This document shows positions 3-15,968 of a DNA stretch of 64,000 bases, piece by piece. The stretch lies in contig CP051243.1 of NCBI GenBank assembly GCA_017795025.1, positions 372,001 through 436,000 on the forward strand, in the 5' to 3' direction. Positions within the stretch are counted from its first letter, which is position 1. Each line of letters starts with the position of its first letter. A program made the position numbers and the translations under genes. The DNA is from Flavobacteriales bacterium (GTDB taxonomy: Bacteria > Bacteroidota > Bacteroidia > Flavobacteriales > Schleiferiaceae). Below the pieces are notes generated by a model. The model was not told the origin of the DNA. It was given only the letters and a program-made list of their open reading frames with translations, and made no database searches.

Positions 3-3000
3 GCGGAGCGTAACATTCCAGAAGGTTTTGGTGTGCCCTTTATGGGACCCATTACCACGGGCCTCGGTGAAATCTACCAGTACACCCTTGAGGTAGATTC
101 GGCCCACCGCGATCAGTATAGTATAACCGACCTACGTACCATTCAAGATTGGATTGTAAAGCGACAATTATCCGGGATTAATGGGGTAGTAGAAGTAAAT
201 ACTTGGGGCGGTTACTTAAAACAGTATCAGGTGGCCATCAACCCCGATTTACTGCGGAGCTTGAATGTTAATCTTGATGCGGTATACCGAGCCCTAAAGC
301 AAAACAATGGCTTGGCTGGGGGGGCTTATATCGAAAAGGGAGATCAGAGTTATTTTATTCGTAGTGAAGGCTTAGCCAAGAGTATTCAGGATATAGAAAA
401 CATCGTAGTAGAGAAACGGGGATCCCGTCCTATTCTGGTAAAAGACCTGGCCACAGTGAAGATTGACGCAGCCCCCCGGTTTGGGGCGATAACCGCTAAT
501 GGGCAGGGCGAAAGAGTGATGGGGCAAGTTATGATGCTCAAAGACGCCAACTCTAAAAAGGTTATTGAAAGCGTTAAAGATCGGGTAGCCGAGATCAGTG
601 CCAATCTGCCGGAAGGCATTTACCTAAACCCCTTTTTAGAGCGCAGCGAATTAATTGGCAAAACGACCTTTACCATTGCCGAGAACCTCATTTTAGGTTG
701 CTTGATTGTGATTTTTGTGGTAGTGCTCCTATTGGGAAATTTCCGATCGGGAATGGTTGTCGCCTCCATGATTCCGATTACCCTTCTCTTCGCCATTTCA
801 TTGATGTATGTTTTCGGCATTGATGCCAATTTGATGAGTCTGGGTGCCATTGACTTTGGGATTATCATTGATGGGGCGGTGATTATTGTTGAATATATTG
901 CCTACCGGATTACCCGCGAATTCAAAGTTTTGGAAGGATTAAGTGCGGCGGATCGCCGAGCAAAAATCGATGGAATTACTTTGGAAGCATCGCATAAAAT
1001 GATGCACTCGGCAGTTTTTGGGCAGTTAATCATCATCATCGTTTTTATCCCCATTTTAAGTTTAGCCGGGGTAGAAGGGAAGATGTTTCGACCCATGGCT
1101 TTAGTGTTCAGTTTTGCTCTTACCGGTGCCATGCTACTTTGTTTCACCTATGTTCCGGTGATGGCCTCCTTGTTTCTGAAACCCAAAGCATCTAAAGGGC
1201 CCAACTTCGCCGATAGAATTATGCACCGTTTGGAGGCTTGGTATCGTCCTAGCTTAAACTGGGCTTTGGGCCACGCCCGCCTGGTAATAGCCGCAGCCTT
1301 CACCCTCTTTCTAGCGGCGGTCGTGCTTTTTACCCGCATGGGAGGCGAGTTTGTGCCTACCCTCGATGAAGGAGATTATGTTATTCAGCCGGTTTTAAAA
1401 ACAGGTACCTCCTTAGAGCGCACCATCGAGCTGACCACCAAAATGGAGCAAATTTTAAAAGGTTTCCCAGAGGTAGATCAGGTGGTAAGTCGCATCGGTG
1501 CCGCCGAAGTTCCAACCGATCCCATGTCGATGGAAGAGGCGGATGTAATCATCAAATTGAAGCCTAGGGGAGAATGGCAAACGGCAGAAACTAAAGATGA
1601 CCTTGCCAATCGTTTTAAAGAGGCCTTAATGATTATTCCCGGGGTAGATTATGAGTTCACTCAGCCAATCGAAATGCGCTTTAATGAGCTGATAACGGGG
1701 GTAAGGGCTGATTTAGCCATCAAGATCTTCGGTGAAGATTTGGATGTGCTCAGTAGCTTAGCCCATCAGATAAGTGCTAAAATTGAGGGTGTTCCGGGTG
1801 CAGCCGACATAAGCGTTGAAAAAATTGTGGGGCTTCCTCAGGTTAAGGTTTCCTTTAAACGTGCCCAAATGGCTCGCTACGGCTTAGATGTAGAGTCGCT
1901 CAATCAATATATCTCGGCCGGATTTGCCGGAGCAAAGGTGGGGTCCATCTTCGAGGGGGAGAAGCAATTTGATATTGGTCTTCGCTTTGATGCCGATTGG
2001 CGAAATGAGCCTGAGGATTTAGCAAAAATTAGAATTGAAACGCCGGGCGGAGCCTCCATCCCCCTGTCGGCTGTAGCCGATATAAGCTTAACCAAAGGTC
2101 CGGCTAAAGTATCCCGCGAGGACACGAAGCGAAGGATAGTGGTAGGAGTAAACGTTAGGAACCGGGATTTAGAATCGGTGGTTGAGGATGTACAAGCCGT
2201 CCTTAAAGACGAGATTAAACTTCCCGAAGGCTATTTTGTGGAGTACGGTGGGCAGTTTCAAAATTTACGCTCGGCACGGACCCGCTTATCTTACGCCGTG
2301 CCGCTTGCTTTACTACTCATATTCATCTTACTCTATTTCGCCTTCAACTCTGTGCAGGATGCGATTATGATCTTTTCCGCCATTCCTCTTTCTGCGGTGG
2401 GAGGAATTATTTTTCTCTACCTGCGAGGTTTGCCCTTTAGCATTTCCGCTGGGGTAGGCTTTATCGCTTTGTTTGGAATTGCGGTGCTTAATGGAATTGT
2501 TTTAATTGAGGAGTTTAAAGAACTCAAGAAAAAGTCTATGGACAGTCCTAAAGCGCTCATTTTAAAAGGTAGTCTTTCCCGTTTGCGTCCGGTTCTATTA
2601 ACCGCCTCTGCGGCTGCATTAGGCTTTTTGCCTATGGCGATTTCCACCTCTGCTGGAGCAGAAGTACAACGCCCCCTTGCCACGGTGGTTATCGGCGGAT
2701 TGATAAGCTCGACAGCCTTAACCCTCATGGTTTTACCAGCGCTTTATTATCTGCGCGAACGCGCCCGAGAGAAGAGAAGTAAGGCGAATAGCCTAATGGC
2801 CGTATTGCTTGTTGGTGCTCTTATTCCTCAAGGTTTGGAGGCACAATCTACATCCTACAGTTTAGAGGATTTAGAGCAGATGGCCTTACACGAAAACTTC
2901 GGTTTAAAGGCGGCCGAGCTGGCGGCCAAGGCCGAGCAAGAGCTCATTAGCGGATCGGCTTCTATAAGTCCCACCTCGGTGTACTATTCCTTCGATGAGA

Positions 3001-3980
3001 ATAATATAGCGGAGAATAATGCCCCAATTCGTGTATGGGGGGTAGAACAAGAGTTTAATTGGCCGGGTAAGTATCGGCAAGAGCAAAGGCTGCAGCGGGC
3101 TAAGTATCAAAAATCACTGCAAGAAAGCGAGATGGCGAAGGCGGTTGTTTTAAAGTCTTTAAGCCTCCATTTTTATGAAGCGATTTATTGGCAGCGCCTT
3201 TTGACCGAATATCGCTCCTTGGATAGTTTGTATTTAATCTCGGCAAAGGCTGCACGCAAGCAGTTTGAGAAGGGGGATATCAATCAACTAGCGGTTTTAA
3301 GCCTGGAGTCTAAAGTGGCTGAGGTACTTCACCTGCGGGATGAAGCGGCCCTAAGGTATCAAAACAGCTTGCGTCAAATTGCCTCCATTGTGCAGGCCGA
3401 TTTAGGATCAGATTTTCGCTTAAGGCTCGGTTCAGGGCTCGAGCCAATTCTACCTGACACTTCCGCCCATCAAGGCTTGCAATTAAAACAGGAGGAGTTA
3501 AAACTGGCCCAAGGTCAGCAAAGTTTAGCCAATCAAATGTGGTGGCCGGGTTTAAGCTTAGGCTATTTTCAGGGAACCAACGATTTGCCCAATGCGCGAA
3601 TTTATCAAGGCTATCAAATTGGCCTAAGCATTCCCTTGTGGTTTGCACCGCAACAAGCCCAAAGTCAAGCAACGGAAATCCGCAGTCGGCAAAAACAGGC
3701 CGAATTAGCCGATTACCGTCAACAATTAAACCGTGAATATCAAAACCTCCTGGCCGAAGCCAGTCATCTGAAAGAAGTATTAGGTCAATACCAAGAATTG
3801 CATTTACCCTTGGCGCGTAAACTTCGCTCTCAGGCCGAAAAATCTTGGCAAGAAGGGGAAATTGCCTATCTGGAATACGTGCAGCTACTTGACCGTAGTT
3901 TGGCGATTAACACCGATTATCATTTCCAACGGATGCAATATGCCCAAAAGCTCATCGAACTTAAATACTTGTTATTATGA
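3..3980 (+). CDS. CusA/CzcA-type heavy-metal RND efflux pump fused to a TolC-like outer-membrane factor (5' end off window)
   Basis: The reading frame is open from the left edge, so the N-terminus is missing. The first two thirds (to about 2780) is an RND transporter. It holds the heavy-metal-pump signature in a membrane helix, DFGIIIDGAVIIVE near 853-895, whose acidic residues are the proton-relay positions of the CzcA/CusA family. After the last RND helices comes a short hydrophobic, signal-like stretch ending GLEAQ (about 2800-2850). From about 2860 to the stop the protein is coiled-coil-rich and TolC-like (ALHENFGLKAAELAAKAEQE onward). Fusion of the inner-membrane pump to the outer-membrane factor is, as I recall, seen in Bacteroidota. 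The stop overlaps the next gene's start (ATGA), so pump and adaptor are translationally coupled. Expected role: export of metal cations (Cu/Ag or Zn/Co/Cd; not decidable here). Confidence 0.9.
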   Translation, partial: AERNIPEGFGVPFMGPITTGLGEIYQYTLEVDSAHRDQYSITDLRTIQDWIVKRQLSGINGVVEVNTWGGYLKQYQVAINPDLLRSLNVNLDAVYRALKQNNGLAGGAYIEKGDQSYFIRSEGLAKSIQDIENIVVEKRGSRPILVKDLATVKIDAAPRFGAITANGQGERVMGQVMMLKDANSKKVIESVKDRVAEISANLPEGIYLNPFLERSELIGKTTFTIAENLILGCLIVIFVVVLLLGNFRSGMVVASMIPITLLFAISLMYVFGIDANLMSLGAIDFGIIIDGAVIIVEYIAYRITREFKVLEGLSAADRRAKIDGITLEASHKMMHSAVFGQLIIIIVFIPILSLAGVEGKMFRPMALVFSFALTGAMLLCFTYVPVMASLFLKPKASKGPNFADRIMHRLEAWYRPSLNWALGHARLVIAAAFTLFLAAVVLFTRMGGEFVPTLDEGDYVIQPVLKTGTSLERTIELTTKMEQILKGFPEVDQVVSRIGAAEVPTDPMSMEEADVIIKLKPRGEWQTAETKDDLANRFKEALMIIPGVDYEFTQPIEMRFNELITGVRADLAIKIFGEDLDVLSSLAHQISAKIEGVPGAADISVEKIVGLPQVKVSFKRAQMARYGLDVESLNQYISAGFAGAKVGSIFEGEKQFDIGLRFDADWRNEPEDLAKIRIETPGGASIPLSAVADISLTKGPAKVSREDTKRRIVVGVNVRNRDLESVVEDVQAVLKDEIKLPEGYFVEYGGQFQNLRSARTRLSYAVPLALLLIFILLYFAFNSVQDAIMIFSAIPLSAVGGIIFLYLRGLPFSISAGVGFIALFGIAVLNGIVLIEEFKELKKKSMDSPKALILKGSLSRLRPVLLTASAAALGFLPMAISTSAGAEVQRPLATVVIGGLISSTALTLMVLPALYYLRERAREKRSKANSLMAVLLVGALIPQGLEAQSTSYSLEDLEQMALHENFGLKAAELAAKAEQELISGSASISPTSVYYSFDENNIAENNAPIRVWGVEQEFNWPGKYRQEQRLQRAKYQKSLQESEMAKAVVLKSLSLHFYEAIYWQRLLTEYRSLDSLYLISAKAARKQFEKGDINQLAVLSLESKVAEVLHLRDEAALRYQNSLRQIASIVQADLGSDFRLRLGSGLEPILPDTSAHQGLQLKQEELKLAQGQQSLANQMWWPGLSLGYFQGTNDLPNARIYQGYQIGLSIPLWFAPQQAQSQATEIRSRQKQAELADYRQQLNREYQNLLAEASHLKEVLGQYQELHLPLARKLRSQAEKSWQEGEIAYLEYVQLLDRSLAINTDYHFQRMQYAQKLIELKYLLL

Positions 3981-5122
3981 AGCCTCTTTTAAGCAAGGCT
4001 AAGCTCCTAACTTTTGTTGCCCTCTGGGCTATGATTGCTTGCAGTTCGCCCTCCGAAACTCCTGCGATAGGTGACAAGGCAACGCTACCTTCAAATTCCG
4101 AGCGATTCCTAAGTAAGGAGCAATGGCAAAGTGGGGATTTTCAAATGGTGCAGATGGTAGAGCGCGACTTTTCGGGGCAGGTTCCCCTCACCGGAAGAAT
4201 GATTATTCCCCCGGTTGATCAATATCAATTGAGCACTTTTTTTGCCGGTTCGGTGAGTGATTTAAAGGTCCAAAATGGGGACCTGGTCCGAAAAGGGGAG
4301 CTATTGTTTTACTTACAAGGGCCAACCGTAATCGATCTGCAAAAGGATTATTGGGAAAGCAAAGCGAACTTAGAATATGCCAAACTCGACTACTTAAGGC
4401 AGAAGGAATTGCGACAGGATTCCATTGTGGCCGAGAAATCCTTTCAGAAAATAGAATCCGATTACTATAGCAGTCAAGCGCGTTTTAGCGCCCTAGATGA
4501 AAAATTGAAATTACTCGGTTTCAATCCGAATGCTTACAAAGAGGGAACCATCGTATCTCGCTTAGCCATTTATGCTCCCCAATCCGGTATTATCAGTGAT
4601 TTAGCTATTAGCAGCGGCTATTACCTCGAGCCTAATGAGCGGGCATTGCAAATTAATAAGTTGGACAATCCCATGCTGGAGCTTAGGGTGTTCGAAAGGG
4701 ATTTAAGCAAATTGAAAATTGGTCAGTCGCTGGATTATACTTTACAGTCGGAGTCGGGACAGGTTTACAGAGCCAGCGTTAATCGCATTAACCCCAATTT
4801 CAGTTCGGAAGGTTCGGCCTTAGTATACGCCAGCCTTCAAGACCCTAAGCCCGAAACTATAGCCAATGGGATGTACATTTCAGCTAGCCTTAATTATACC
4901 AGCAATAAAATGTGGGCTTTACCGGAGCAGGCCATTGCCGAGAAAAATGGAAAGTACTTTGCCTTACAAGTTGAAGAAAAGGAAGAGATTTATTTTTTAA
5001 AGCCGGTTGAGCTCCAATTAGGATCGAATGAAGCAGGCTATCAAAGCATATTAGGGTCTACGAAGCAAATGCATTCGTATTATTTTTTAAATAAAGACGT
5101 TTTCCAATTGCTTGAAGAATAG
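3977..5122 (+). CDS. RND efflux periplasmic adaptor lipoprotein (CusB/CzcB, HlyD family)
   Basis: A 381-residue membrane-fusion protein. The N-terminus is a lipoprotein signal with the modified Cys at residue 22 (AMIAC). A split biotinyl-lipoyl-like domain follows (GSVSDLKVQNGDLVRKGELL, then the YAPQSGIISDLAISSGYYL half), separated by a helical hairpin. After it comes a beta-barrel domain (LELRVFERDLSKLKIGQ) and a C-terminal membrane-proximal domain. It starts inside the stop of the upstream pump gene by an ATGA overlap, so the two form one efflux unit. It has no Met- or His-rich N-terminal tract, so metal specificity cannot be read. It is the last gene of this unit; the next gene begins 45 bases later behind a possible promoter. 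Confidence 0.9.
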   Translation: MKPLLSKAKLLTFVALWAMIACSSPSETPAIGDKATLPSNSERFLSKEQWQSGDFQMVQMVERDFSGQVPLTGRMIIPPVDQYQLSTFFAGSVSDLKVQNGDLVRKGELLFYLQGPTVIDLQKDYWESKANLEYAKLDYLRQKELRQDSIVAEKSFQKIESDYYSSQARFSALDEKLKLLGFNPNAYKEGTIVSRLAIYAPQSGIISDLAISSGYYLEPNERALQINKLDNPMLELRVFERDLSKLKIGQSLDYTLQSESGQVYRASVNRINPNFSSEGSALVYASLQDPKPETIANGMYISASLNYTSNKMWALPEQAIAEKNGKYFALQVEEKEEIYFLKPVELQLGSNEAGYQSILGSTKQMHSYYFLNKDVFQLLEE

Positions 5123-5167: not shown

Positions 5168-6016
5168 ATGATTTCCAGGAAGCAGGGATACCAATTGTAT
5201 CTATTCCTGTTGGCTTTAACAGTTAGTATCATTACTGTATGGCTGGCCTTGGAAGGCTATGATTACTATCATACTCCGATTGAGGAACGCTTTTATCATG
5301 AGCATCACGATTGGTTTAAGGCCTCTGGTATTTTTGGTCATGGCCTCGGTATCATCGGCACCCTGCTTATAACGATTGGCGTATTCCTTTACATCCCCGC
5401 TAAGAAATATGGCTTTCTTGAGAAATACATTCGCCTGAAGTACCTACTCGATTTTCATATTTTCCTTTGCACCCTAGGGCCAATTTTAATTTTATTTCAC
5501 ACCACTTTTAAGTTCGGAGGAATTGTTTCGGTAGCCTTTTGGTCTATGGTTCTCGTTGTTCTTTCGGGCGTTATCGGGCGTTATATTTACTTGCAATTGC
5601 CGCGTAGTATTTCGGGAAGAGAAATGAGCCGCCAAGAAATTAAGCAGGCGCAGGAGGCGGCCTTCGCCGAGATGGCTTTTTTGACTGATCAAAAACCAGA
5701 ACTTTTAAATGCGATTAAATCCTATGAGAATCCGCATAAATCGTGGTGGGGACGTCGTAAGCATTTTATAAGTACCCTTAAATCGTATCGAGCTGAAATG
5801 GCCGAACTGGATATTTCCGATACCCAAAGGAAAAAAGTAATGGCCACCCTACGTTCGGAATTGAAGCTCCAGCAGCGTATCAATAATTTAGAAACGATGC
5901 AGCGCCTATTTAAATATTGGCATGTGGCGCATCGTCCCTTTGCCTTGATTATGCTCTTTGTGGTTATAGCGCATATAGCGGTAACCTGGATTATGGGCTA
6001 TACCTGGATTTTCTAA
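5168..6016 (+). CDS. Haem-b-type / ferric-reductase-like integral membrane protein
   Basis: 282 residues with about five membrane helices (near residues 8-30, 54-76, 95-115, 120-142 and 256-280). A soluble, charged helical insertion (about 145-250) lies before the last helix. Histidines in or next to helices (H58, H97, H111, H252, H255, H269) are placed as haem ligands would be; the pair in FHIFLCTLGPILILFHT is especially like cytochrome b561/ferric-reductase-type helices. Its stop overlaps the next start (TAATG), coupling it to the Fe-S flavoprotein. Likely role (inference): the membrane haem protein that carries electrons between the quinone pool or flavoprotein and the periplasmic multihaem cytochromes. 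The exact family name is uncertain. Confidence 0.7.
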   Translation: MISRKQGYQLYLFLLALTVSIITVWLALEGYDYYHTPIEERFYHEHHDWFKASGIFGHGLGIIGTLLITIGVFLYIPAKKYGFLEKYIRLKYLLDFHIFLCTLGPILILFHTTFKFGGIVSVAFWSMVLVVLSGVIGRYIYLQLPRSISGREMSRQEIKQAQEAAFAEMAFLTDQKPELLNAIKSYENPHKSWWGRRKHFISTLKSYRAEMAELDISDTQRKKVMATLRSELKLQQRINNLETMQRLFKYWHVAHRPFALIMLFVVIAHIAVTWIMGYTWIF

Positions 6017-7338
6017 TGGTCTACGAATACCTCATATACGGATTTACTTTTTTGGTTTCGGCGGGGATCGTGGTTTACTATTATCGTTCGGGAGCTAAGA
6101 AGTCTAAACTTGTGGCCGCTAAGGTGGAACAAGCCCAAGAAGAAGGAAGGTATCAGCCGGTCTCCCTATACCCGTATATAGACCCCAGTCGATGCATTGG
6201 CAGTGGGGCTTGTGTGCGTGCTTGCCCAGAGGAGGATATTATTGGCTTAATCGACGGGAAGGGAACCTTAATAAACGCGAGCAGTTGCATTGGTCATGGG
6301 GCCTGCTTTCACTCTTGTCCGGTGGATGCCATAAGCCTGCGGATAGGTACCGAAGAACGTGGGGTTGACTTACCTCATATTAAACCAGACTATGAAACCA
6401 ATATTAGCGGTATTTACATTGCTGGTGAACTGGGGGGAATGGGATTGATAAAAAATAGCGCGGAGCAAGGCGTTCAGGCCTGTGCCAACCTAGCAGACTC
6501 CCTTCCAGAGCAGAAGTCTTGTGATTTAGATATAGCCATTATTGGAGCTGGACCAGCGGGTATTGCTGCGGCCTTAAAGGCCAAGGAATTGGGCTTAAGT
6601 TTCGAGGTTTTGGAGCAGGAGTCCTTAGGAGGTACCGTGGCTACTTTCCCTCGGGATAAAGTAGTAATGACCCAAGCGATGGAATTACCGCTTTACGGGA
6701 AGCTAAAGCTTAGCAATACTTCAAAATCCGAATTGATGGGAATTTGGACGGAGTTACTGGAATCTCACCAAATTAGCATAAGCGAACACTGCAAGGTGGA
6801 AGGTATTGAGGAACTTGCCCCATATCATTTTAGATTAAAGACCGCTGCGGGTCGCCAAATCGAAAGTCGATCGGTAATCATCGCCATTGGTCGACGCGGC
6901 AGCCCCCGTAAATTAGGGGTCCCAGGAGAGGAAAGGGAAAAGGTAGCTTATCGACTATTAGAACCGGAGCATATCCAAAACCAAAAGGTATTGGTAGTTG
7001 GGGGTGGTGATTCGGCAGTAGAATCGGCTCTTTTACTGATGGAGCATAATGAAGTAAGCCTTTCCTACCGAAAGGAACACTTTGCCCGAATTAAAAAAGG
7101 GAACCAAGTCAATTTAGAAAAAGCTTTCGCGGAGGGGAAAATTAGGCCGCTTTTGGCCACTAATGTGCAGGCTATTGAGGAGGACCGGGTGCTAATTAAA
7201 GATGCACAAGGCGAGGAAATCGATTTACCGAATAATCGGGTTTACATCTTTGCGGGAGGAGAATTACCCATTCCTTTTTTAAAGGATAGCGGCATTAATG
7301 TGGAGAAAACTTTTGGTAAAACCCTGCGGAAACATTGA
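6016..7338 (+). CDS. Membrane-anchored ferredoxin-like / FAD-NAD(P) oxidoreductase
   Basis: I start it at the ATG overlapping the upstream stop (TAATG), not at upstream in-frame codons inside that gene; this gives 440 residues. One membrane helix (about 4-23) precedes a two-cluster ferredoxin-like domain. Its motifs are CIGSGACVRACP (60-71) and CIGHGACFHSCP (91-102); in both, the usual second Cys is replaced (S63, H94). A conserved linker, IYIAGELGGMGLIKNSAEQG (133-152), leads into a thioredoxin-reductase-like fold with FAD motif GAGPAGIAAA (177-186) and NAD(P) motif GGGDSAVES (329-337). No TrxR redox CxxC is seen. Likely role (inference): electron exchange between NAD(P)H and the adjacent membrane haem protein, facing the cytoplasm. 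Confidence 0.85.
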   Translation: MVYEYLIYGFTFLVSAGIVVYYYRSGAKKSKLVAAKVEQAQEEGRYQPVSLYPYIDPSRCIGSGACVRACPEEDIIGLIDGKGTLINASSCIGHGACFHSCPVDAISLRIGTEERGVDLPHIKPDYETNISGIYIAGELGGMGLIKNSAEQGVQACANLADSLPEQKSCDLDIAIIGAGPAGIAAALKAKELGLSFEVLEQESLGGTVATFPRDKVVMTQAMELPLYGKLKLSNTSKSELMGIWTELLESHQISISEHCKVEGIEELAPYHFRLKTAAGRQIESRSVIIAIGRRGSPRKLGVPGEEREKVAYRLLEPEHIQNQKVLVVGGGDSAVESALLLMEHNEVSLSYRKEHFARIKKGNQVNLEKAFAEGKIRPLLATNVQAIEEDRVLIKDAQGEEIDLPNNRVYIFAGGELPIPFLKDSGINVEKTFGKTLRKH

Positions 7339-8936
7339 ATAAGCTAGCTTCCATACTGCTGCTATTATTCTTGCTTCTTATCGGAGCTCAGCTTCAGGCG
7401 CAGTTTTCGCCGGGGAAACTTTCTAAAGCTCATGCTGAGTATGAAGGCTTGGAAAATTGTACGCTTTGTCATGAGCTAGGAGCTAAGGTTTCGGAAACGA
7501 AGTGCCTCGAATGCCATAAAGAATTGCAAAGCCTAATTAGTCGCAAGCGGGGTTATCATTCCTCTAATGAAGTTCAGGAAAAGACCTGTATTGATTGCCA
7601 TAGTGAGCATCACGGTAGAAAGTTTGACGCGGTGCGATTTGATAGTGTGAATTTCAATCATAGGCTAACTGGCTATAAGTTGGAAGCTGCACATGAGCGT
7701 ATTGACTGCCGTGATTGCCATAAATCAGATTACATCTCGGATTCTGAAATAGCCCAACGCCAAGGAACTTACCTAGGATTGCAAGAGGCCTGTTTGTCCT
7801 GTCATTTGGATTACCATCAAGGGGATTTAGGAAAGGATTGTCTTTCCTGTCATAATTATCAGGATTTTGAGCAAACGCCCGGCTTCGATCATCAGGAGAC
7901 AGACTTTCCTCTAAAAGGCGCTCATCAAAATGTGGATTGCTTGGAATGCCATCCCATGGAAATTCGGGAGGCGAAGGAGTTTCAAAAATTCAAAGGTTTA
8001 AAGTTTGCCAATTGTACCGATTGCCATGAAGATGCGCATCAAGGGCGCTTTGGTCCGAATTGCACTGATTGTCATTCGGAGCAATCCTGGTCTCAGCTAA
8101 AAAATAGTCATCGATTTAACCACGACCTTACCGATTATCCTTTAAGAGGGATGCATCGAACCGTATCTTGTAATGAATGTCATAGTAGCGGCGATTTTTC
8201 ACAAAACTTGAATTATGCCCGATGTACCGATTGTCATGATGATTACCATCAAGGCGAGTTAGAGGGCTTAACAAAAGGCATACAAGATTGTGATGCCTGT
8301 CATAGCCTCGAGAAGGATTTCACTTGGAGTAATTACGATTGGGAAGATCATAATAGTTCGGAGTTTCCTTTAGAAGGTGCCCATCTTGCCACCCCTTGCT
8401 TTGCATGCCATAGGGAATCGGAAGACAGCCGTTGGGATTTCGAATTTGAAGCCCACAATTGTGTGGCCTGTCACGATGATATTCATCAGAACTACATCAG
8501 CGAAAGCTATTACCCGGAACAAAACTGCGAAGCTTGTCATAATGCCGATCGTTGGTCCAGTATCACTTTCGATCATCAAAAAACGGATTGGCCCCTCGAT
8601 GGTGCTCATGCTTCAGAAGATTGCCGCGCTTGTCATTTCGAAGGGGAGGAGCAAGAGTTTAATACCTTAGAGGGCCGTTGTGCTGAATGTCATACTAATG
8701 TGCACGGCGAGCAGTTTAATCAAGAGGGGGAAAGGGCTTGTACCGAATGTCATCGCACCGCCATAGAATGGAATGCGGATGCCTTCGATCACCAAAAAAC
8801 AGAATTTCCACTCGAGGGAAAACATGCCGAAATAGAATGTGCGGCTTGCCACAAGCCCGAATCATTAAGCGATGGATCCGAAAGGATTATTTATAAAATT
8901 GAAAGATTCCAATGTATAGACTGTCACGGTACTTAG
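7335..8936 (+). CDS. Periplasmic multihaem cytochrome c with 20 CxxCH sites
   Basis: 533 residues. The only fitting start is TTG at 7335, overlapping the upstream stop (TTGA). It gives a clean signal peptide (MNKLASILLLLFLLLIGA... cleaved near LQAQ). I count 20 CxxCH haem-attachment motifs. Much of the chain is a repeat of about 70-80 residues built around an 'F-x-H-x-x-T-x-[FWY]-P-L-x-G-x-H ... CxxCH' pattern (for example FDHQKTDWPLDGAH), with about three haems per unit, like cytochrome c3/c7-type wires. The dense haem load and small spacing imply a long electron-conducting protein in the periplasm. It overlaps the next cytochrome gene by 25 bases. CcsBA at the end of the operon presumably attaches its haems. 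Confidence 0.92.
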   Translation: MNKLASILLLLFLLLIGAQLQAQFSPGKLSKAHAEYEGLENCTLCHELGAKVSETKCLECHKELQSLISRKRGYHSSNEVQEKTCIDCHSEHHGRKFDAVRFDSVNFNHRLTGYKLEAAHERIDCRDCHKSDYISDSEIAQRQGTYLGLQEACLSCHLDYHQGDLGKDCLSCHNYQDFEQTPGFDHQETDFPLKGAHQNVDCLECHPMEIREAKEFQKFKGLKFANCTDCHEDAHQGRFGPNCTDCHSEQSWSQLKNSHRFNHDLTDYPLRGMHRTVSCNECHSSGDFSQNLNYARCTDCHDDYHQGELEGLTKGIQDCDACHSLEKDFTWSNYDWEDHNSSEFPLEGAHLATPCFACHRESEDSRWDFEFEAHNCVACHDDIHQNYISESYYPEQNCEACHNADRWSSITFDHQKTDWPLDGAHASEDCRACHFEGEEQEFNTLEGRCAECHTNVHGEQFNQEGERACTECHRTAIEWNADAFDHQKTEFPLEGKHAEIECAACHKPESLSDGSERIIYKIERFQCIDCHGT

Positions 8937-9934
8937 TATTAAGCATTTTGCTTAGCTGGGGGATGGCGGCTCAAAATCCGCATGGCCTCGAGTTTAAAAT
9001 TGATTGTTCCGACTGCCACAATTCGGGCTCTTGGCAGGTGGTGATCGAGAATATTCGTTTTGATCATGGCAGCACCGGCTTTGAACTAGAAGGACAGCAC
9101 GCCCAGGTGCAATGCATGGACTGCCATCAGGAGCTGGATTTTCGGGAAGTGGGTTCCGATTGCATCGACTGTCATACCGATATACATCAAATGAGCGTAG
9201 GAAATGACTGCCAGCGTTGCCATAACAGTGATTCGTGGTTAGTATTTGAAATTCCCGAATTGCACGAGCAGAACGGGTTTCCACTGCAGGGCGCTCATAG
9301 TACTTTAGCCTGTGTTGATTGTCATAACAATGAGAATAACCTGGTTTGGGAACGACTGGGCCAAGAATGCGTGGATTGTCATCGGGAAGATTATATGCAA
9401 ACTTCATCGCCCGATCACGTGAGCTCTGGTTTTTCAACCAATTGTGTGCAATGCCACGAGCCTTTCAGTTTGGATTGGAGAGGAGATAACTTCCATTATT
9501 TCTTTCCCTTAGTTCAAGGTCACGATGGTCTCGATTGTGCCCAGTGCCATAGCAGTCCGAGTTACGACCAAGCCAACCCCGATTGTATTTCCTGCCATTT
9601 AAGTGATTACCAAAATGCCAGTAATCCTGAGCATCAAAATGCTGGTTTTCCGAGAGATTGTGGAATGTGTCATAGTTTAAATCCCGGTTGGGCACCGGCG
9701 AGCTTTGATAATCACGATGATCAGTTTTTCCCCATTTACAGTGGTAACCACGCTGGAGAATGGAATCAGTGTACGAATTGCCATAATAATCCTGGGAACT
9801 TTAGCAGCTTTAGTTGTATCGATTGTCATGAGCATAATGATCCAGGACGAATGGCTGATAAGCACGATGATGTTGGCGGCTACCGTTTTGAAAGTAATGC
9901 CTGTTACAGTTGCCATCCTGACGGAAGAGAATGA
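8912..9934 (+). CDS. Periplasmic multihaem cytochrome c with 13 CxxCH sites
   Basis: 340 residues. The ATG lies 25 bases inside the upstream gene and is supported by a good signal peptide (MYRLSRYLVLSILLSWGMAAQ). I count 13 CxxCH motifs, with the same 'H-x-x-T/N-G-F-x-L-x-G-x-H' spacers as the 20-haem neighbour (for example FDHGSTGFELEGQH). The two look like paralogues from one repeat family, which is also clear from their adjacency. The stop overlaps the next start by ATGA. Likely role (inference): second segment of a periplasmic electron wire, possibly the one that docks with or enters the beta-barrel encoded next. Confidence 0.92.
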   Translation: MYRLSRYLVLSILLSWGMAAQNPHGLEFKIDCSDCHNSGSWQVVIENIRFDHGSTGFELEGQHAQVQCMDCHQELDFREVGSDCIDCHTDIHQMSVGNDCQRCHNSDSWLVFEIPELHEQNGFPLQGAHSTLACVDCHNNENNLVWERLGQECVDCHREDYMQTSSPDHVSSGFSTNCVQCHEPFSLDWRGDNFHYFFPLVQGHDGLDCAQCHSSPSYDQANPDCISCHLSDYQNASNPEHQNAGFPRDCGMCHSLNPGWAPASFDNHDDQFFPIYSGNHAGEWNQCTNCHNNPGNFSSFSCIDCHEHNDPGRMADKHDDVGGYRFESNACYSCHPDGRE

Positions 9935-11529
9935 GAAATTTAATAGTTATAGGATTGGTATTATGCGGCTTTATCGCTTTGGGGCAGGAGCGTCGAGAAG
10001 CCGAAGTGACCTACCTTAACAGTCGGAGTGTATACCTCCGCTTTGAAAACACGGATGGGATAAATGAGGGCGACACTTTGTACAATTCCTCCGATAATAG
10101 CCCTTGCCTGCAAGTTCAGCGAGTTTCTTCGGTTTCCTGTTTAGCGATTCGAATTGGAAATTGTGAACCGGTAAAAGGGCAGAAGTTTTATATCCTAAAG
10201 GAGGCTTCAAAAACGGTGGAAGAAGAAACGGAAACTACGGCACCAAGTAGTCCTCAGGTGATAGAGTCCACTGCCGATAGTTTAAGTCGAATACCGCAAA
10301 GTCCAGAGCCTAAAACGCGCAAGCGAGATAAGGGATTTTTAAACTTAGGCTTTAGCTCAGCGGCAACTCTAAACGATGCCGGTCGGCAAAATTATCGTTC
10401 TTTAATGAGGGCTAGTTTGCGGGTAGATAGCCTCTTTGGAAAAGACTTGAGTCTGGAGGCATACGGTAATCTGCAGAGTTTCCGGCGTGGTTATGCCAGC
10501 AGTGCCGATGACTACCGAGCCAATATTTACAATTTGGCCTTGGTATACCAGCCTATAGAATCACAACGAATAGTGCTTGGGCGTCGTATTAACCCTAGGG
10601 TAGCCTCTTTAGGGGCTATCGATGGTTTACAGTGGGAAGGCAGCTGGGGCAATTGGTCTGCCGGGGCTATCTTAGGTAGTAGACCGGATTTTGGAAATTA
10701 TGCCTACAATTTCAATTTGATGCAATATGGCGCTTATGGCGCTTACGATTGGCATAAAGGGAAACAAAGCGGCGCCCTGAGTTTAGGTTTAATGCAGCAA
10801 ACCAATCAAGGGGCCATTGATCGCCGTTATATTTATACCCAGCAATCCTATCGCTGGTCAAGGCTTTATGTCTTTGCTTCCGCAGAAGTAGATTTGTATG
10901 AGAACTTCGATACCGCTCAAGCGGCAAATACCTTTCGCTTAAGTTCGCTATACCTGTCTGCTCGCTATCGCCTTAGCAATCGCTGGACCCTCTTTGCTTC
11001 CTACGATTCGCGGCAACAGATCATTTTCTTCGAACGCTACGATTCGGAAATTGAGCGACTTTTAGCGGAGCAAGGGGCTCGAGAAGGTATTCGCTTGCGA
11101 AGCGATTACCGTTTCTGGAAATCTACCCATCTGGGTTTATCCTATAATTTGCGCACGAATCCCACTTTTGGCAATAACAGTCAAAACCTGCAGGCCTCCA
11201 TCAGTCAACACCGTTTGCCTTGGATTGGTGGAAGCTTAATTTATCGCTTTAATATCAACCGTAATGGCAATTTAAACTCGGAGATCAACTCCTTGCGATA
11301 CTCGAGGAACATTCAGTCCAAATCAAGAGTATCGGCCTATTACCGTTACGTTTCCATGGCTTATGCTTTACGGGAGATTAACTTAGACCCTCAGCATTTT
11401 TATGGTGTGGAATACAGTCATCAGTTTGGGAATCAATGGAATTTGGGTATCATGGGAGAATACAGTATGATACATCAGCAAGACCAAATTCGTGTTTACC
11501 TTCGCGTTAATAAAAGACTCAATTTTTAA
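9931..11529 (+). CDS. Predicted outer-membrane beta-barrel protein of the cytochrome operon
   Basis: 532 residues with a signal peptide (MRNLIVIGLVLCGFIALGQ). A small N-terminal domain (about 20-95) resembles a beta-rich periplasmic module. A Pro/Ser/Glu-rich linker (about 95-140) follows, then about 390 residues of alternating polar/hydrophobic strands rich in Tyr, Trp, Arg and Ser, ending in a terminal Phe (KRLNF) as in many outer-membrane barrels. I recognise no named family. Its position between two multihaem cytochromes and CcsBA suggests (inference) the barrel of a porin-cytochrome conduit, analogous to MtrB/PioB, but no sequence similarity to those is claimed. It is coupled to the upstream gene by ATGA and lies 2 bases before the next gene. 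Confidence 0.7.
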   Translation: MRNLIVIGLVLCGFIALGQERREAEVTYLNSRSVYLRFENTDGINEGDTLYNSSDNSPCLQVQRVSSVSCLAIRIGNCEPVKGQKFYILKEASKTVEEETETTAPSSPQVIESTADSLSRIPQSPEPKTRKRDKGFLNLGFSSAATLNDAGRQNYRSLMRASLRVDSLFGKDLSLEAYGNLQSFRRGYASSADDYRANIYNLALVYQPIESQRIVLGRRINPRVASLGAIDGLQWEGSWGNWSAGAILGSRPDFGNYAYNFNLMQYGAYGAYDWHKGKQSGALSLGLMQQTNQGAIDRRYIYTQQSYRWSRLYVFASAEVDLYENFDTAQAANTFRLSSLYLSARYRLSNRWTLFASYDSRQQIIFFERYDSEIERLLAEQGAREGIRLRSDYRFWKSTHLGLSYNLRTNPTFGNNSQNLQASISQHRLPWIGGSLIYRFNINRNGNLNSEINSLRYSRNIQSKSRVSAYYRYVSMAYALREINLDPQHFYGVEYSHQFGNQWNLGIMGEYSMIHQQDQIRVYLRVNKRLNF

Positions 11530-11531
11530 AC

Positions 11532-12287
11532 ATGTTTAAAAAGAGCATGGGGCTTTTAAGCCTCTCCTTATGGCTAATTTCTTGTCAGCAAGGCCCCACC
11601 GTTTTAGAAGAAGACAGTCAGGCGGCACAAGGTATTTTCGAGCCTGCTTCAGGTTCGAGTAAAACCCAAGTATCGCAAGCAGAGGCTGAGCATCGCGTAT
11701 TTTTGATGGATACCCTAAGTGGCAGTCGATACTCGTATTTAAAGGTAAGGGAAGGCGATAAGGAGTTTTGGTTAGCGACCCTAAAGCGCAGCTACATCCT
11801 GGAAGAGGAATACATTTTTGAAAAGGGGATTTATAAAACCGATTATTACTCTACCGCATTTGATCGTAGTTTCGATGAAATTTACCTGGTATCCGATTTA
11901 CGGCCGGCTTTTTCCCAGGGTCAGCAGGAAGCCTTAGGAAACATCTTTGAATCAAAATCCCCCGCAAAGGACCTCAGTACTGCGGATATTCAAGCGATGG
12001 ATGGGGCCATCAGCATAAAGGAACTGATTGAAAATGCCGATTCTTACGTAGAGCAAGAAGTGAAGCTTACCGCTAAGGTGGTAAAGATTAATGCCAATAT
12101 TATGGACCGTCATTGGCTGCATTTGAAGGATGGAAGTATGGATCAATTCGATTTGGTGGCCACCTCCCAAACAGCAGTTCCGGCTGGTCATACCATTAAC
12201 CTTAAGGCCACCTTAAGGAAGTCCGTCGATTTTGGAGCGGGATATTCCTATGATTTAATTTTGGAGAATGCAGAAGTACTTCCTTAA
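11532..12287 (+). CDS. Lipoprotein with C-terminal OB-fold-like domain
   Basis: 251 residues with a lipoprotein signal (lipobox LISC, Cys 18). The middle of the protein is of unknown fold. The C-terminal 100 residues (SIKELIENADSYVEQEVKLT, later DRHWLHLKDGS and GHTINLKATL) read like the small OB-fold domains found in lipoproteins beside multihaem cytochrome genes (NrfJ-like); this is recognition by pattern, not by search. Its stop overlaps the CcsBA start (TAATG). Likely role (inference): accessory factor for assembly or docking of the haem proteins, held to a membrane by its lipid anchor. Confidence 0.6.
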   Translation: MFKKSMGLLSLSLWLISCQQGPTVLEEDSQAAQGIFEPASGSSKTQVSQAEAEHRVFLMDTLSGSRYSYLKVREGDKEFWLATLKRSYILEEEYIFEKGIYKTDYYSTAFDRSFDEIYLVSDLRPAFSQGQQEALGNIFESKSPAKDLSTADIQAMDGAISIKELIENADSYVEQEVKLTAKVVKINANIMDRHWLHLKDGSMDQFDLVATSQTAVPAGHTINLKATLRKSVDFGAGYSYDLILENAEVLP

Positions 12288-15200
12288 TGACTAAAAACAA
12301 AACTGCTCTTCATCGAGTGCTGAACACTTTCTTCGGCAGACGCGCCGCCCTATTGTACATCTTACTTTTCGCGGCAGCGGTAGGGATTGCCACCTTTGTA
12401 GAAAACGACTATGGCACCGACAGCGCCCAAAAGGTTATTTATAAAGCGGCTTGGTTTGAGTTGCTCTTGCTTCTCTTTTCCGGAGCCTTAATAAAGAACA
12501 TTATCGATTTTCGATTAATTCAGCGTAAGATGTGGGCCGTCTTATGCTTCCATGCCGCTATCATTATCATATTAATTGGCGCTGGCGTCACGCGTTACTT
12601 CGGATATGAGGGTATGATGCACATCCGGGAAACCGAACAGAGCAATCAGTTCTTATCAAGCGAAGCTTACCTTAAACTGCATTTCGAGAAGGAGGGAAAA
12701 GATTACCAATTAGAAGAACCCGTTCTTTGGTCTTCCCTTGGAACCAATACATTTAAGGAGGAATACCAATTGGGTTCGGACCGGATTAAGGTGGACTTAA
12801 AGGAGACCTTTATTAATCCCGAGTATGAGCTGGAAACAGTCGATAATGGGGAGCCCATTTTAAAACTGGTTTTTGGTTCCTCACAAGGGCGAAGCGAATA
12901 TTTCCTACGCTATAACACCCAACGCTATATTGGCGGGGTTCCCTTTTATTTTGGGCCTGGTCAAATGCCCGATGCTTTTTCCATTCAAGTAGATGACGAG
13001 GGCAAGGCGATGGTGTTTAGCGGGCAACCTTACAGCTATATGCGGATGGCCGATCGGCAGATGTTTGAAATGCCGGCTGATACTCTTAGTGAGCTTGCCC
13101 TGCGTAGTTTGTATCGCTGGGGCGGTTCCTCTTTTGTTTTTGGTGACTTTAGCCTTTCGGGAAGGCTCCAACGTAAACAAGGAGACTTGAAAATTCAATC
13201 GGGCTCTACCATTGGATTAATGTTCGAGGTTGAGCATCAAGGCCAGCTTCACGAATTGTATTGTGAGGGTTATAAGGGTTCTCCAGGTCGATACGAGTCG
13301 GTGGATTTAGATGGATTGCGACTCAATATAGCCTATGGTTCTAAAGTGCGGGAACTTCCATTTGCCATTAAGCTGTACGATTTTCAAATGGAGCGCTATC
13401 CGGGAACCAACTCGCCAGCCTCTTATGCCAGCGAAGTCCAAGTGATAGATCCTAGTAAAGGGGAGGAGTTCGATTTTAGGATTTACATGAATCATATTTT
13501 AAATCATGGCGGATACCGTTTCTTTCAGTCTTCCTACGACCGAGATGAGCTTGGCACCTACCTTTCTGTGAACCACGATTTTTGGGGAACCTGGATTAGT
13601 TACTTCGGTTATGCCTTACTCACTTTAGGTATGCTGTGGACTTTAGTTTCGAAGAACACCCGCTTTGCTCAATTGGCTAAACAAATAAAGGATCTTCGAG
13701 CAAAAAGGGGAACGATGCTCGTTTTACTCTTCTTCGGCTTTAGCAGTTTGCAGGCACAAACAGAATTGGAAAGTAATTTAGAGGCCGTTTCGAAAGAACA
13801 TGCCGACTTGTTTAGCACGGTTCTCGTTCAAGATGTTCGAGGTCGGATGAAACCCATGCATACCCTTAGCAGGGAGGTGATGCGTAAGCTTTTAGGAAAA
13901 GAAAGTTATCGAGGATTAAGTGCCGATCAAGTGGTGCTAAGTGTTTGGTCCAACAATGCCAATTGGTATGGCGAGCCGATGATAAAATTGCCTTATCACC
14001 CCAAGTGGGCAGAACTAGGATTTACGGATAGGGTGCAAACCTATAAGGCCTTTTTTAACACAGATGGATCCTACAAATTAGCCCAAGAAGTACAAGCGGC
14101 CAATGCGGTAATCGACAAGGAAAAAGGTACTTGGGAAAAAGCGGTTCTCAAGCTGGATGAAAAGGTGAACATCTTTAATATGATGTTATCGGGTTACTTG
14201 CTCAAAATTGTTCCTTTAGAGGGAGATGTGAATAACACTTGGGTTTCAGACTATTCACACGGCGAGGCCCAGTCCATCGTTGCCGATCGTTTATTTCCGG
14301 CTTATCAGGAAGCCCTAAGCCGCGGCATGGCCAGTGGGGATTATTCTTTGGCCAATGGAATCATTACCGAGCTCAAGAAGTATCAAAATGCTCAGGATCC
14401 CGAAATCTTACCGAGTGAAAGCCAAAGGTCGATGGAAATCTTCCTAAATAAACTCAAGGTATTTAACCGCTTGGCTCTTATCTACACTTTACTGGGCCTC
14501 GGGTTTTTAATCACCTTGTTTTTACAAGTATTCCGACCTAAGAGTAGTTTTAAGCGCTTGCACCAGGTACTGCTTATAGGTTTAGTTCTGGCCTTTAGCT
14601 TTCATACCCTAGGATTGGGTTTACGTTGGTACGTATCAGGACGTGCGCCCTGGAGTAATGGTTATGAAAGTATGATTTACATTGCCTGGACCGGAACCTT
14701 AGCGGGGCTCTTGTTTAGTCGAAAGAGTAGTGGGGCCTTGGCAGCTACAAATGTCTTAAGTGGCGTTGTTTTGCTCATTGCCATGCTCAGTTTCCTCAAC
14801 CCCGAAATTACGCCCTTAGTTCCCGTACTCCGTTCTTATTGGCTCACCATACATGTTTCGCTCGAAGCAGGCTCCTATGGCTTCCTGATGTTAGGGGCCT
14901 TGATTGGGGTCATCAATTTATTGTTGATGATTTTCCTCAACGATTCCAATAAAGCGAGGGTGCGAGATATGGTTTCGGAGATGACTAAGCTTAGTGAGAT
15001 GACCCTCATTGGCGGTTTATTTATGTTGAGCATCGGTACCTACCTTGGCGGGGTTTGGGCCAATGAAAGTTGGGGACGTTACTGGGGTTGGGATGCAAAA
15101 GAAACCTGGGCCTTAGTGTCGATTTTAGTTTATGCTTTTATTCTGCATATGCGATTTGTCCCCGGACTAAAAAGTGCTTTTGCCTTTAATTTCGCGAGTT

Positions 15201-15388
15201 TGTTTGGCTTGGCATCAATTATAATGACCTATTACGGGGTAAACTACTATCTCTCGGGCTTGCACTCCTACGCCGCAGGAGACCCCGTTCCCGTTCCGGC
15301 TTGGGTTTACTATTCCATAGGCAGTTTGATCCTCATAAGTGCCTTGGCCTTTTGGCGTCAAAAGGTGGTCTGGAAAAGGAAGTCCTAA
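12287..15388 (+). CDS. ccsBA: Fused cytochrome c synthase CcsBA (ResB-CcsA, System II)
   Basis: 1033 residues. The N-terminal half is ResB/CcsB-like: three early membrane helices, a large periplasmic domain, and another helix near 440-460. A signal-like hydrophobic stretch at about 483-495 precedes a second periplasmic domain. The C-terminal 300 residues are the CcsA part, with several helices and the haem-handling tryptophan-rich WWD motif WGRYWGWDAKETWAL (about 929-943). The enzyme delivers haem across the membrane and attaches it to CxxCH cysteines. Being the last gene of the cytochrome operon suggests it matures the 33 haem sites encoded just upstream, perhaps besides the cell's general c-type cytochromes. 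A weak hairpin follows the stop. Confidence 0.93.
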   Translation: MTKNKTALHRVLNTFFGRRAALLYILLFAAAVGIATFVENDYGTDSAQKVIYKAAWFELLLLLFSGALIKNIIDFRLIQRKMWAVLCFHAAIIIILIGAGVTRYFGYEGMMHIRETEQSNQFLSSEAYLKLHFEKEGKDYQLEEPVLWSSLGTNTFKEEYQLGSDRIKVDLKETFINPEYELETVDNGEPILKLVFGSSQGRSEYFLRYNTQRYIGGVPFYFGPGQMPDAFSIQVDDEGKAMVFSGQPYSYMRMADRQMFEMPADTLSELALRSLYRWGGSSFVFGDFSLSGRLQRKQGDLKIQSGSTIGLMFEVEHQGQLHELYCEGYKGSPGRYESVDLDGLRLNIAYGSKVRELPFAIKLYDFQMERYPGTNSPASYASEVQVIDPSKGEEFDFRIYMNHILNHGGYRFFQSSYDRDELGTYLSVNHDFWGTWISYFGYALLTLGMLWTLVSKNTRFAQLAKQIKDLRAKRGTMLVLLFFGFSSLQAQTELESNLEAVSKEHADLFSTVLVQDVRGRMKPMHTLSREVMRKLLGKESYRGLSADQVVLSVWSNNANWYGEPMIKLPYHPKWAELGFTDRVQTYKAFFNTDGSYKLAQEVQAANAVIDKEKGTWEKAVLKLDEKVNIFNMMLSGYLLKIVPLEGDVNNTWVSDYSHGEAQSIVADRLFPAYQEALSRGMASGDYSLANGIITELKKYQNAQDPEILPSESQRSMEIFLNKLKVFNRLALIYTLLGLGFLITLFLQVFRPKSSFKRLHQVLLIGLVLAFSFHTLGLGLRWYVSGRAPWSNGYESMIYIAWTGTLAGLLFSRKSSGALAATNVLSGVVLLIAMLSFLNPEITPLVPVLRSYWLTIHVSLEAGSYGFLMLGALIGVINLLLMIFLNDSNKARVRDMVSEMTKLSEMTLIGGLFMLSIGTYLGGVWANESWGRYWGWDAKETWALVSILVYAFILHMRFVPGLKSAFAFNFASLFGLASIIMTYYGVNYYLSGLHSYAAGDPVPVPAWVYYSIGSLILISALAFWRQKVVWKRKS

Positions 15389-15403: not shown

Positions 15404-15455
15404 TTTAAATAGGCTTACTCTTTAAGCATTAGATAGCTTGCGGGTAAAAGTGGAA

Positions 15456-15968
15456 ATGCATTTACCTGAAGAACTCATCCTGAGTAAAATATACCGCCTT
15501 CGCAATTATAAGGTGATGATTGATCGTGACCTCGCCCAGCTTTATGGGATTCCAACCAAAGTATTAAAGCAAGCGGTTCGTCGAAACCTGGATCGTTTCC
15601 CCGAGGACTTCATGTTTCAAATGACACCAGAAGAATTAGAAATTTGGAGGTCACAATTTGTGACCTCCAAAGAAGACCTGAAGGGACTGCGGCATGCTCC
15701 TTTCTGTTTTACGGAGCAAGGAGTAACCATGCTATCATGCGTATTAAAGAGTCCTCAGGCCATTGCCGTAAATATTCAAATCATCCGCACCTTTGTGAAG
15801 ATGCGAGAAGTGCTTTTAAGTCAGCAAGAACTAGCCTTGCAGATTGAGGAGCTCCGCCAAGAAGTAGGGGAGCATGACCTTAAAATAGAAAAGATATTTG
15901 AGGCCATTTTGAGCTTAGCAGCTGAAAAAGAAAAGCCTCGTGCTCCAATTGGTTTTAAGCCTTCCTAG
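15456..15968 (+). CDS. ORF6N-domain protein
   Basis: I place the start at the ATG at 15456 (170 residues); an in-frame TTG at 15438 and a GTG at 15450 are alternatives. The N-terminal half matches the ORF6N domain: ILSKIYRLRNYKVMIDRDLA, LYGIPTKVLKQAVRRNLDRF, FCFTEQGVTMLSCVLKS. ORF6N is a small presumed DNA-binding domain common in phage antirepressors and, as single genes, in Bacteroidota chromosomes. The C-terminal part (about 120-160) is a coiled-coil helix. The stop overlaps the convergent LOG gene's stop by four bases (CTAG). No phage genes are nearby, so its role is unknown; it may be a remnant of mobile DNA or a stand-alone regulator. Confidence 0.8.
   Translation: MHLPEELILSKIYRLRNYKVMIDRDLAQLYGIPTKVLKQAVRRNLDRFPEDFMFQMTPEELEIWRSQFVTSKEDLKGLRHAPFCFTEQGVTMLSCVLKSPQAIAVNIQIIRTFVKMREVLLSQQELALQIEELRQEVGEHDLKIEKIFEAILSLAAEKEKPRAPIGFKPS

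Follow-up and report, generated by a model that had tools for sequence, protein, structure and literature searches.

The systems closest to the locus described here are MtrCAB, PioAB and MtoAB (of Shewanella, Rhodopseudomonas and Sideroxydans, respectively), in which, as here, an outer-membrane barrel is encoded together with multihaem c-type cytochromes and for which electron transfer across the outer membrane has been proposed. The MtrB/PioB barrels are predicted to have 28 strands, and a porin is likewise clustered with two multihaem cytochromes, of 8 and 12 haems, in the Geobacter Pcc system (OmbB-OmaB-OmcB), which has been described in several phyla, including Ignavibacterium (PMC4245776). 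In the Bacteroidetes, He et al. (2019) reported putative novel porin-cytochrome genes on the basis of gene organization only (PMC6344600), an anode-enriched MAG carries an uncharacterised cluster of six multihaem genes and one barrel (PMC8258643), and cytochromes carrying over 100 motifs have been reported from the Bacteroidota (PMC11495043). The literature that we searched, consisting of open-licence PMC papers, yielded no description of the gene order or mechanism of the seven genes analysed here.

The window, that is, the whole stretch of DNA that was analysed, comprises 64,000 nucleotides of contig CP051243.1 from a Flavobacteriales bacterium (Schleiferiaceae), and contains seven plus-strand open reading frames between positions 5168 and 15388 (g1 to g7, Table 1). 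An earlier reading of the same DNA, made from the letters alone (the sequence-only reading), had described them as an operon in which neighbouring genes overlap or lie 2 bases apart, with 33 haem c sites, that would form a self-contained electron conduit. The layout and the count both agree with our results. In gene order, the junctions are overlaps of 1, 4, 25 and 4 bases, then a gap of 2 bases and finally a 1-base overlap, and the 33 CxxCH motifs are divided between g3 (20) and g4 (13), where they are accompanied by c-type Pfam matches and invariant distal histidines. The interpretation as a conduit is also supported, and we place the probability that these genes encode a self-contained trans-envelope conduit, leading from NAD(P)H to an external acceptor, at roughly two in three. 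Just downstream of g7, a short open reading frame (15438-15968) appears ORF6N-like by eye.

Table 1. Genes of the candidate conduit operon, with window positions and the main evidence for each assignment.
Gene	Identifier	Length	Assignment	Position	Strand	Evidence
g1	P0001	282 aa	Predicted dihaem cytochrome b, 5 TM	5168..6016	+	AF2 helices, invariant His
g2	P0002	440 aa from ATG at 6016	TM-anchored Fe-S/FAD/NAD(P) protein	6016..7338	+	Pfam Fer4 and Pyr_redox
g3	P0003	533 aa	20-haem c-type cytochrome, signal peptide, TTG start	7335..8936	+	20 CxxCH, Pfam Cytochrome_C7
g4	P0004	340 aa	13-haem c-type cytochrome, signal peptide	8912..9934	+	13 CxxCH
g5	P0005	532 aa	Predicted outer-membrane beta-barrel	9931..11529	+	AF2 model, VIA-align
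g6	P0006	251 aa	Lipoprotein	11532..12287	+	Lipobox LISC, 15-row family
g7	P0007	1033 aa	Fused CcsBA (ResB-ResC), System II haem exporter/cytochrome c synthase	12287..15388	+	Pfam ResB and Cytochrom_C_asm

The first gene had been taken for a haem-b-type membrane protein. The haem-binding part of that claim is reinforced by an alignment of relatives, in which H97, H111, H252, H255 and H269 are invariant in 54 sequences, while no family could be assigned: Pfam and NCBIfam profile scans matched none, a sequence search found no solved structure, a Foldseek search with the g1 model returned no significant E-values, and VIA-align Z-scores of about 7 (7.3 for cytochrome b561, 6.6 for NarI) fall in the chance range for helical bundles. 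The AF2 model is entirely helical (pLDDT 88), and hydropathy reveals five membrane segments with a charged loop of about 100 residues between TM4 and TM5, a loop that the charge distribution suggests to be cytoplasmic. His97 and His111 lie in TM3 and His255 and His269 in TM5, each pair separated by 14 residues. Two helices bearing His pairs at this spacing constitute the classic dihaem b pattern. On this invariant pattern g1 is predicted to be a transmembrane dihaem b protein, with His252 as a further candidate haem ligand.

Kinship of g1 with the ferric reductases was considered and rejected, with no PF01794 match up to E 10. A PF01794 search of 99 genomes of the order identified three carriers, none of them within the genus, and a short g1 paralogue of another genome produced a weak match below cut-off. 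Weak g1 paralogues in other families were likewise set aside as a related but different pair, being mostly shorter cytochrome b genes that adjoin 10-14-haem proteins. Elsewhere in the phylum, short paralogues of 186-201 aa sit next to cytochromes with 10-14 haems (L106:5077-5637, L104:4707-5312 and L105:4497-5075), possibly representing a related two-gene cytochrome b/c system. At L107:4737-10004 a g1-related cytochrome b shares its locus with genes for a 10-haem protein, an FHA-domain protein and an FAD/NAD(P) reductase of canonical order, which is another pairing of a g1-type b protein with a flavoprotein, and three Nitrospinota contigs harbor a g1 relative in whose vicinity genes for a cytochrome, a flavoprotein and a barrel are all absent (L064:9818-10711, L066:2868-3773 and L067:6432-7325).

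In g2, an N-terminal membrane anchor precedes two 4Fe-4S-type motifs and a YpdA/TrxR-like FAD/NAD(P) domain. Pfam scans assign Fer4 and Pyr_redox, with Pyr_redox_2 and Pyr_redox_3 also over cut-off, in keeping with the membrane-anchored Fe-S/FAD oxidoreductase of the earlier proposal. The first cluster motif (C-x2-[S]-x2-C-x3-CP) has Ser or Thr at the bracketed position in 54 of 57 sequences and Cys in two, and in the second (C-x2-H-x2-C-x3-CP) a His replaces one Cys in all 57. Residues ~173 to 433 align to YpdA/Bdr and thioredoxin reductases (best PDB match 7a7b, E 1.4e-45), and HMMER matches g2 profile positions 126-143, out of order, to the FAD segment at the C-terminus of Bdr. Moving this segment to the C-terminus of g2 completed both Pyr_redox_2 (291/291, 82.8 bits) and Pyr_redox_3 (305/305, 137.1 bits), whereas four shuffled tails left the profiles incomplete (76.9-77.1 and 132.6-133.9 bits, respectively). 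The flavin domain is read here as a circular permutation, with the closing FAD segment on the N-terminal side. With FAD and NAD(P) Rossmann domains and this closing segment present, though permuted, g2 has the features of the YpdA/TrxR superfamily, and it falls outside the YpdA family proper (149 bits against the TIGR04018 equivalog cut-off of 339.9). Relative to YpdA/Bdr and thioredoxin reductase, it possesses an extra membrane anchor, two Fe-S motifs and a relocated C-terminal FAD segment.

From the motifs of g2 we infer both NAD(P)H specificity and the direction of electron flow. The nucleotide site could nonetheless run either way and multihaem wires are reversible in principle, so that electrons might instead be supplied from outside, by Fe(II), another cell or an electrode, and pass through the barrel and cytochromes to NAD(P)+ or quinone, as in Pio and Mto. 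According to targeted searches, the genome encodes an alternative complex III and two haem-copper oxidases, one adjacent to the complex and the other at a separate site; these could take the incoming electrons off, and they also make it very probable that the cell respires oxygen and that the conduit is an addition. NAD(P)+ reduction from Fe(II), however, is strongly uphill and needs an energy input, to which no link was seen, and we regard inward flow as unlikely. A conduit running outward from NAD(P)H is most likely, with direction and acceptor both deduced from the genes.

The products of g3 and g4 are both over cut-off for the Cytochrome_C7 and Cytochrom_c3_2 models of Pfam, and a motif count in the two proteins found none of the variant haem motifs CxxxCH, CxxxxCH and CxxCK. 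Outside the CxxCH motifs, exactly 20 histidines of g3 are invariant in 33 20-haem sequences (33, 75, 92, 109, 120, 161, 186, 197, 235, 263, 274, 305, 339, 350, 384, 414, 425, 457, 486 and 497), and exactly 13 of g4 in 13 13-haem sequences (24, 52, 63, 92, 118, 129, 169, 195, 204, 241, 268, 280 and 318). Since this amounts to one invariant distal His per haem, all the haems are predicted to be bis-His and six-coordinate, which would leave no open catalytic haem and fits electron transfer; the pattern predicts that g3 and g4 are wires rather than enzymes. The two differ in their constancy. While g3 is nearly constant, with 20 haems in 35 of 51 complete relatives and 23 in another 10, g4 ranges from 12 to 55 haems across complete relatives (broad motif). 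The cultured carrier Aequorivita antarctica has a version with 23 and 22 haems. Its counts equal 1 modulo 3 in 31 of 37 cases (binomial P about 4e-10 for independent sequences, which related ones are not), and this predominance of 13+3n indicates that g4 grows by tri-haem modules. Sequence search retrieved no solved structure for g3, and no lipobox or other surface signal is visible in either protein. The same genome also encodes, unlinked to the conduit, a 7-haem cytochrome fused to TPR repeats (L108:4477-6447).

The AF2 model of g5 (pLDDT 81.8) consists of a small beta domain (19-91), a flexible linker and a 22-strand barrel (135-531) without a plug, and VIA-align comparison with outer-membrane barrels gives Z-scores of up to 19.7. 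With fair to good confidence, g5 is thus predicted to be an open, plug-less, 22-strand outer-membrane barrel rather than a closed or unrelated porin, in accord with its original designation. A full Pfam scan returned only Porin_4, at 18.4 bits and below the cut-off of 27, and a full NCBIfam scan nothing, which places g5 outside the MtrB/PioB sequence family; a sequence search found no solved structure. The general mark of porin-cytochrome systems, an outer-membrane barrel co-encoded with multihaem c cytochromes, is present. The lipobox of g6 is visible in its sequence, and the gene adjoins g5 in all 17 loci in which it was found; Pfam places it in no family, NCBIfam offers nothing credible, and the OB-like fold given to it in the sequence-only reading is putative.

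Searching GTDB genomes with g1 identified 69 loci, mostly in the Bacteroidota, with others in the Ignavibacteriota, Chlorobiota, Neomarinimicrobiota, Nitrospinota, Nitrospirota and deltaproteobacterial contigs; within the phylum, about 40 of 395 sampled genomes carry a full-length match. The order g1-g2-g3-g4-g5 recurs across Bacteroidota, Ignavibacteriota and other phyla, as a conserved synteny would have it: successive pairs are adjacent (within 400 bases on one strand) in 54/58, 50/54, 40/46 and 28/33 of the loci holding both genes. The divergence of g1, g2, g3 and g5 is correlated over 28 loci (r 0.79-0.90), to which shared species history may contribute. Downstream of g1, the contigs from Nitrospirota and deltaproteobacteria encode a 40-67-haem protein and then a barrel that falls in the g5 similarity cluster.

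These data also bear on the view that the cytochromes are a periplasmic redox buffer, storing electrons or feeding an unlinked periplasmic reductase, with the barrel an ordinary transporter travelling along. That neither a terminal reductase nor a surface-anchored cytochrome is encoded with the conduit genes, and that the genome has other multihaem proteins, would be congruent with such a role. The barrel, however, directly follows the cytochrome in most of the loci holding both, and its relatives do so even behind the 40-67-haem proteins; moreover, the surroundings of the operon in the 69 loci share no conserved family of reductase genes, contrary to what service to a soluble periplasmic reductase would lead one to expect. 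We therefore consider a redox buffer quite unlikely, and a trans-envelope conduit the better reading of the synteny.

Window positions 33-5122, on the same strand, encode an RND pump that carries a fused outer-membrane efflux domain, together with a fusion protein of CusB/HlyD type, and these genes end 45 bases upstream of g1. This arrangement is repeated in UBA7878 (locus L004) and absent from other genus members, and it would suit an assimilatory or detoxifying metal reductase, reducing Fe(III) or Cu(II) at the surface for uptake or resistance rather than respiration. Yet RND genes lie near the conduit in just 9 of the 69 loci, mostly of other types and in other orientations, and a complement of 33 haems represents a large outlay for assimilation. 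A link between conduit and efflux pump was accordingly rejected as not conserved, and a metal reductase of this kind appears very improbable beside a respiratory conduit.

Pfam confirms the CcsBA of the sequence-only reading, ResB and Cytochrom_C_asm both being over cut-off in the single 1033-aa frame of g7. The protein contains WGRYWGWDAKE and shows the System II CcsBA features (ResB, CcsA/ResC and the WWD haem-handling motif), scoring 173.9 bits against TIGR03144, just below the equivalog cut-off of 187.6. In the g1 tree the window groups with UBA7878 and three other genus members, the genus link being drawn from matching contig coordinates. Among the 24 genomes sampled in the family, g1 and ResB/CcsBA are both found in the 7 genus members, which carry the conduit, and in none of the 17 other genera, while CcmE is found in all 24; in the genome under study, ccmF, ccmE, ccmC and ccmB lie at one locus. 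Since CcsBA is confined to conduit carriers and Ccm is kept by all, the operon brings a private haem ligase, and the earlier claim to that effect is strengthened; the association is perfect within one lineage and counts as one event.

The anatomy computed here, comprising the order of the genes, the numbers of haems and ligands, the motifs for cofactors, the predicted barrel and the conservation, strongly supports a trans-envelope conduit; its topology, its assembly into a physical complex, its exposure at the surface, its NAD(P)H donor and its outward direction are what we infer. Facing the cytoplasm, g2 would pass electrons from NAD(P)H to FAD and on to the two 4Fe-4S-type clusters, and from there to g1, the dihaem b of which would carry them across the inner membrane through a haem on the cytoplasmic side (His97 paired with His255 or His252) and another on the periplasmic side (His111-His269). 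The near-constant 20-haem g3 could then carry them over the periplasm to g4, which, with its 13(+3n) haems, may thread or dock in the 22-strand barrel of g5 and, at the surface, pass them on to an acceptor outside the cell, be it solid, humic or of another kind. The 33 haems would be loaded by g7 as a dedicated ligase, and g6 is a presumed accessory. A more specific proposition can be put forward only tentatively: that of a quinone-independent NAD(P)H-to-surface conduit combining a permuted flavoprotein with a Cys3His Fe-S site, an unnamed dihaem b family, a fixed 20-haem bridge, a surface wire lengthened in evolution by three haems at a time (13+3n, up to 55 haems) and its own ligase in the operon.

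If it works as proposed, the Bacteroidota, a large phylum seldom associated with mineral respiration, would have a widespread wiring kit of their own, the parts of which family models do not group with Mtr or Pio. Cytoplasmic NAD(P)H would be linked directly to the surface, whereas the well-studied conduits use quinol. With the 13+3n series, nature provides a way to test wire length against function, and the private ligase beside a retained Ccm makes ligase-substrate matching testable.

The pairing of g1 and g2 recalls the NADPH oxidases and ferric reductases (NOX and FRE), which take electrons from cytoplasmic NADPH through FAD and dihaem b His pairs in two helices across the membrane. The logic is the same, but g1 has no Ferric_reduct match. 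Judged by its sequences, the conduit is of the porin-cytochrome kind, yet no member of MtrAB/PioAB: neither g5 nor the cytochromes have a family-level match to the MtrB/PioB or MtrA/DmsE models (g3, with 20 haems, reaches 41.4 bits against the decahaem TIGR03508 cut-off of 192.2). The Bacteroidetes clusters (PMC6344600, PMC8258643) share the combination of multihaem and barrel genes but were described without a mechanism, and the order in the anode MAG differs. The Pcc core, as described, is set apart by having no dihaem b, flavoprotein or CcsBA. With respect to MtrCAB, PioAB and MtoAB, the barrel is predicted to have 22 strands instead of 28 and the haems number 20 and 13, and where Mtr-type systems rely on a quinol oxidase such as CymA, the inner-membrane partner here is a predicted dihaem b protein with an Fe-S/FAD flavoprotein.
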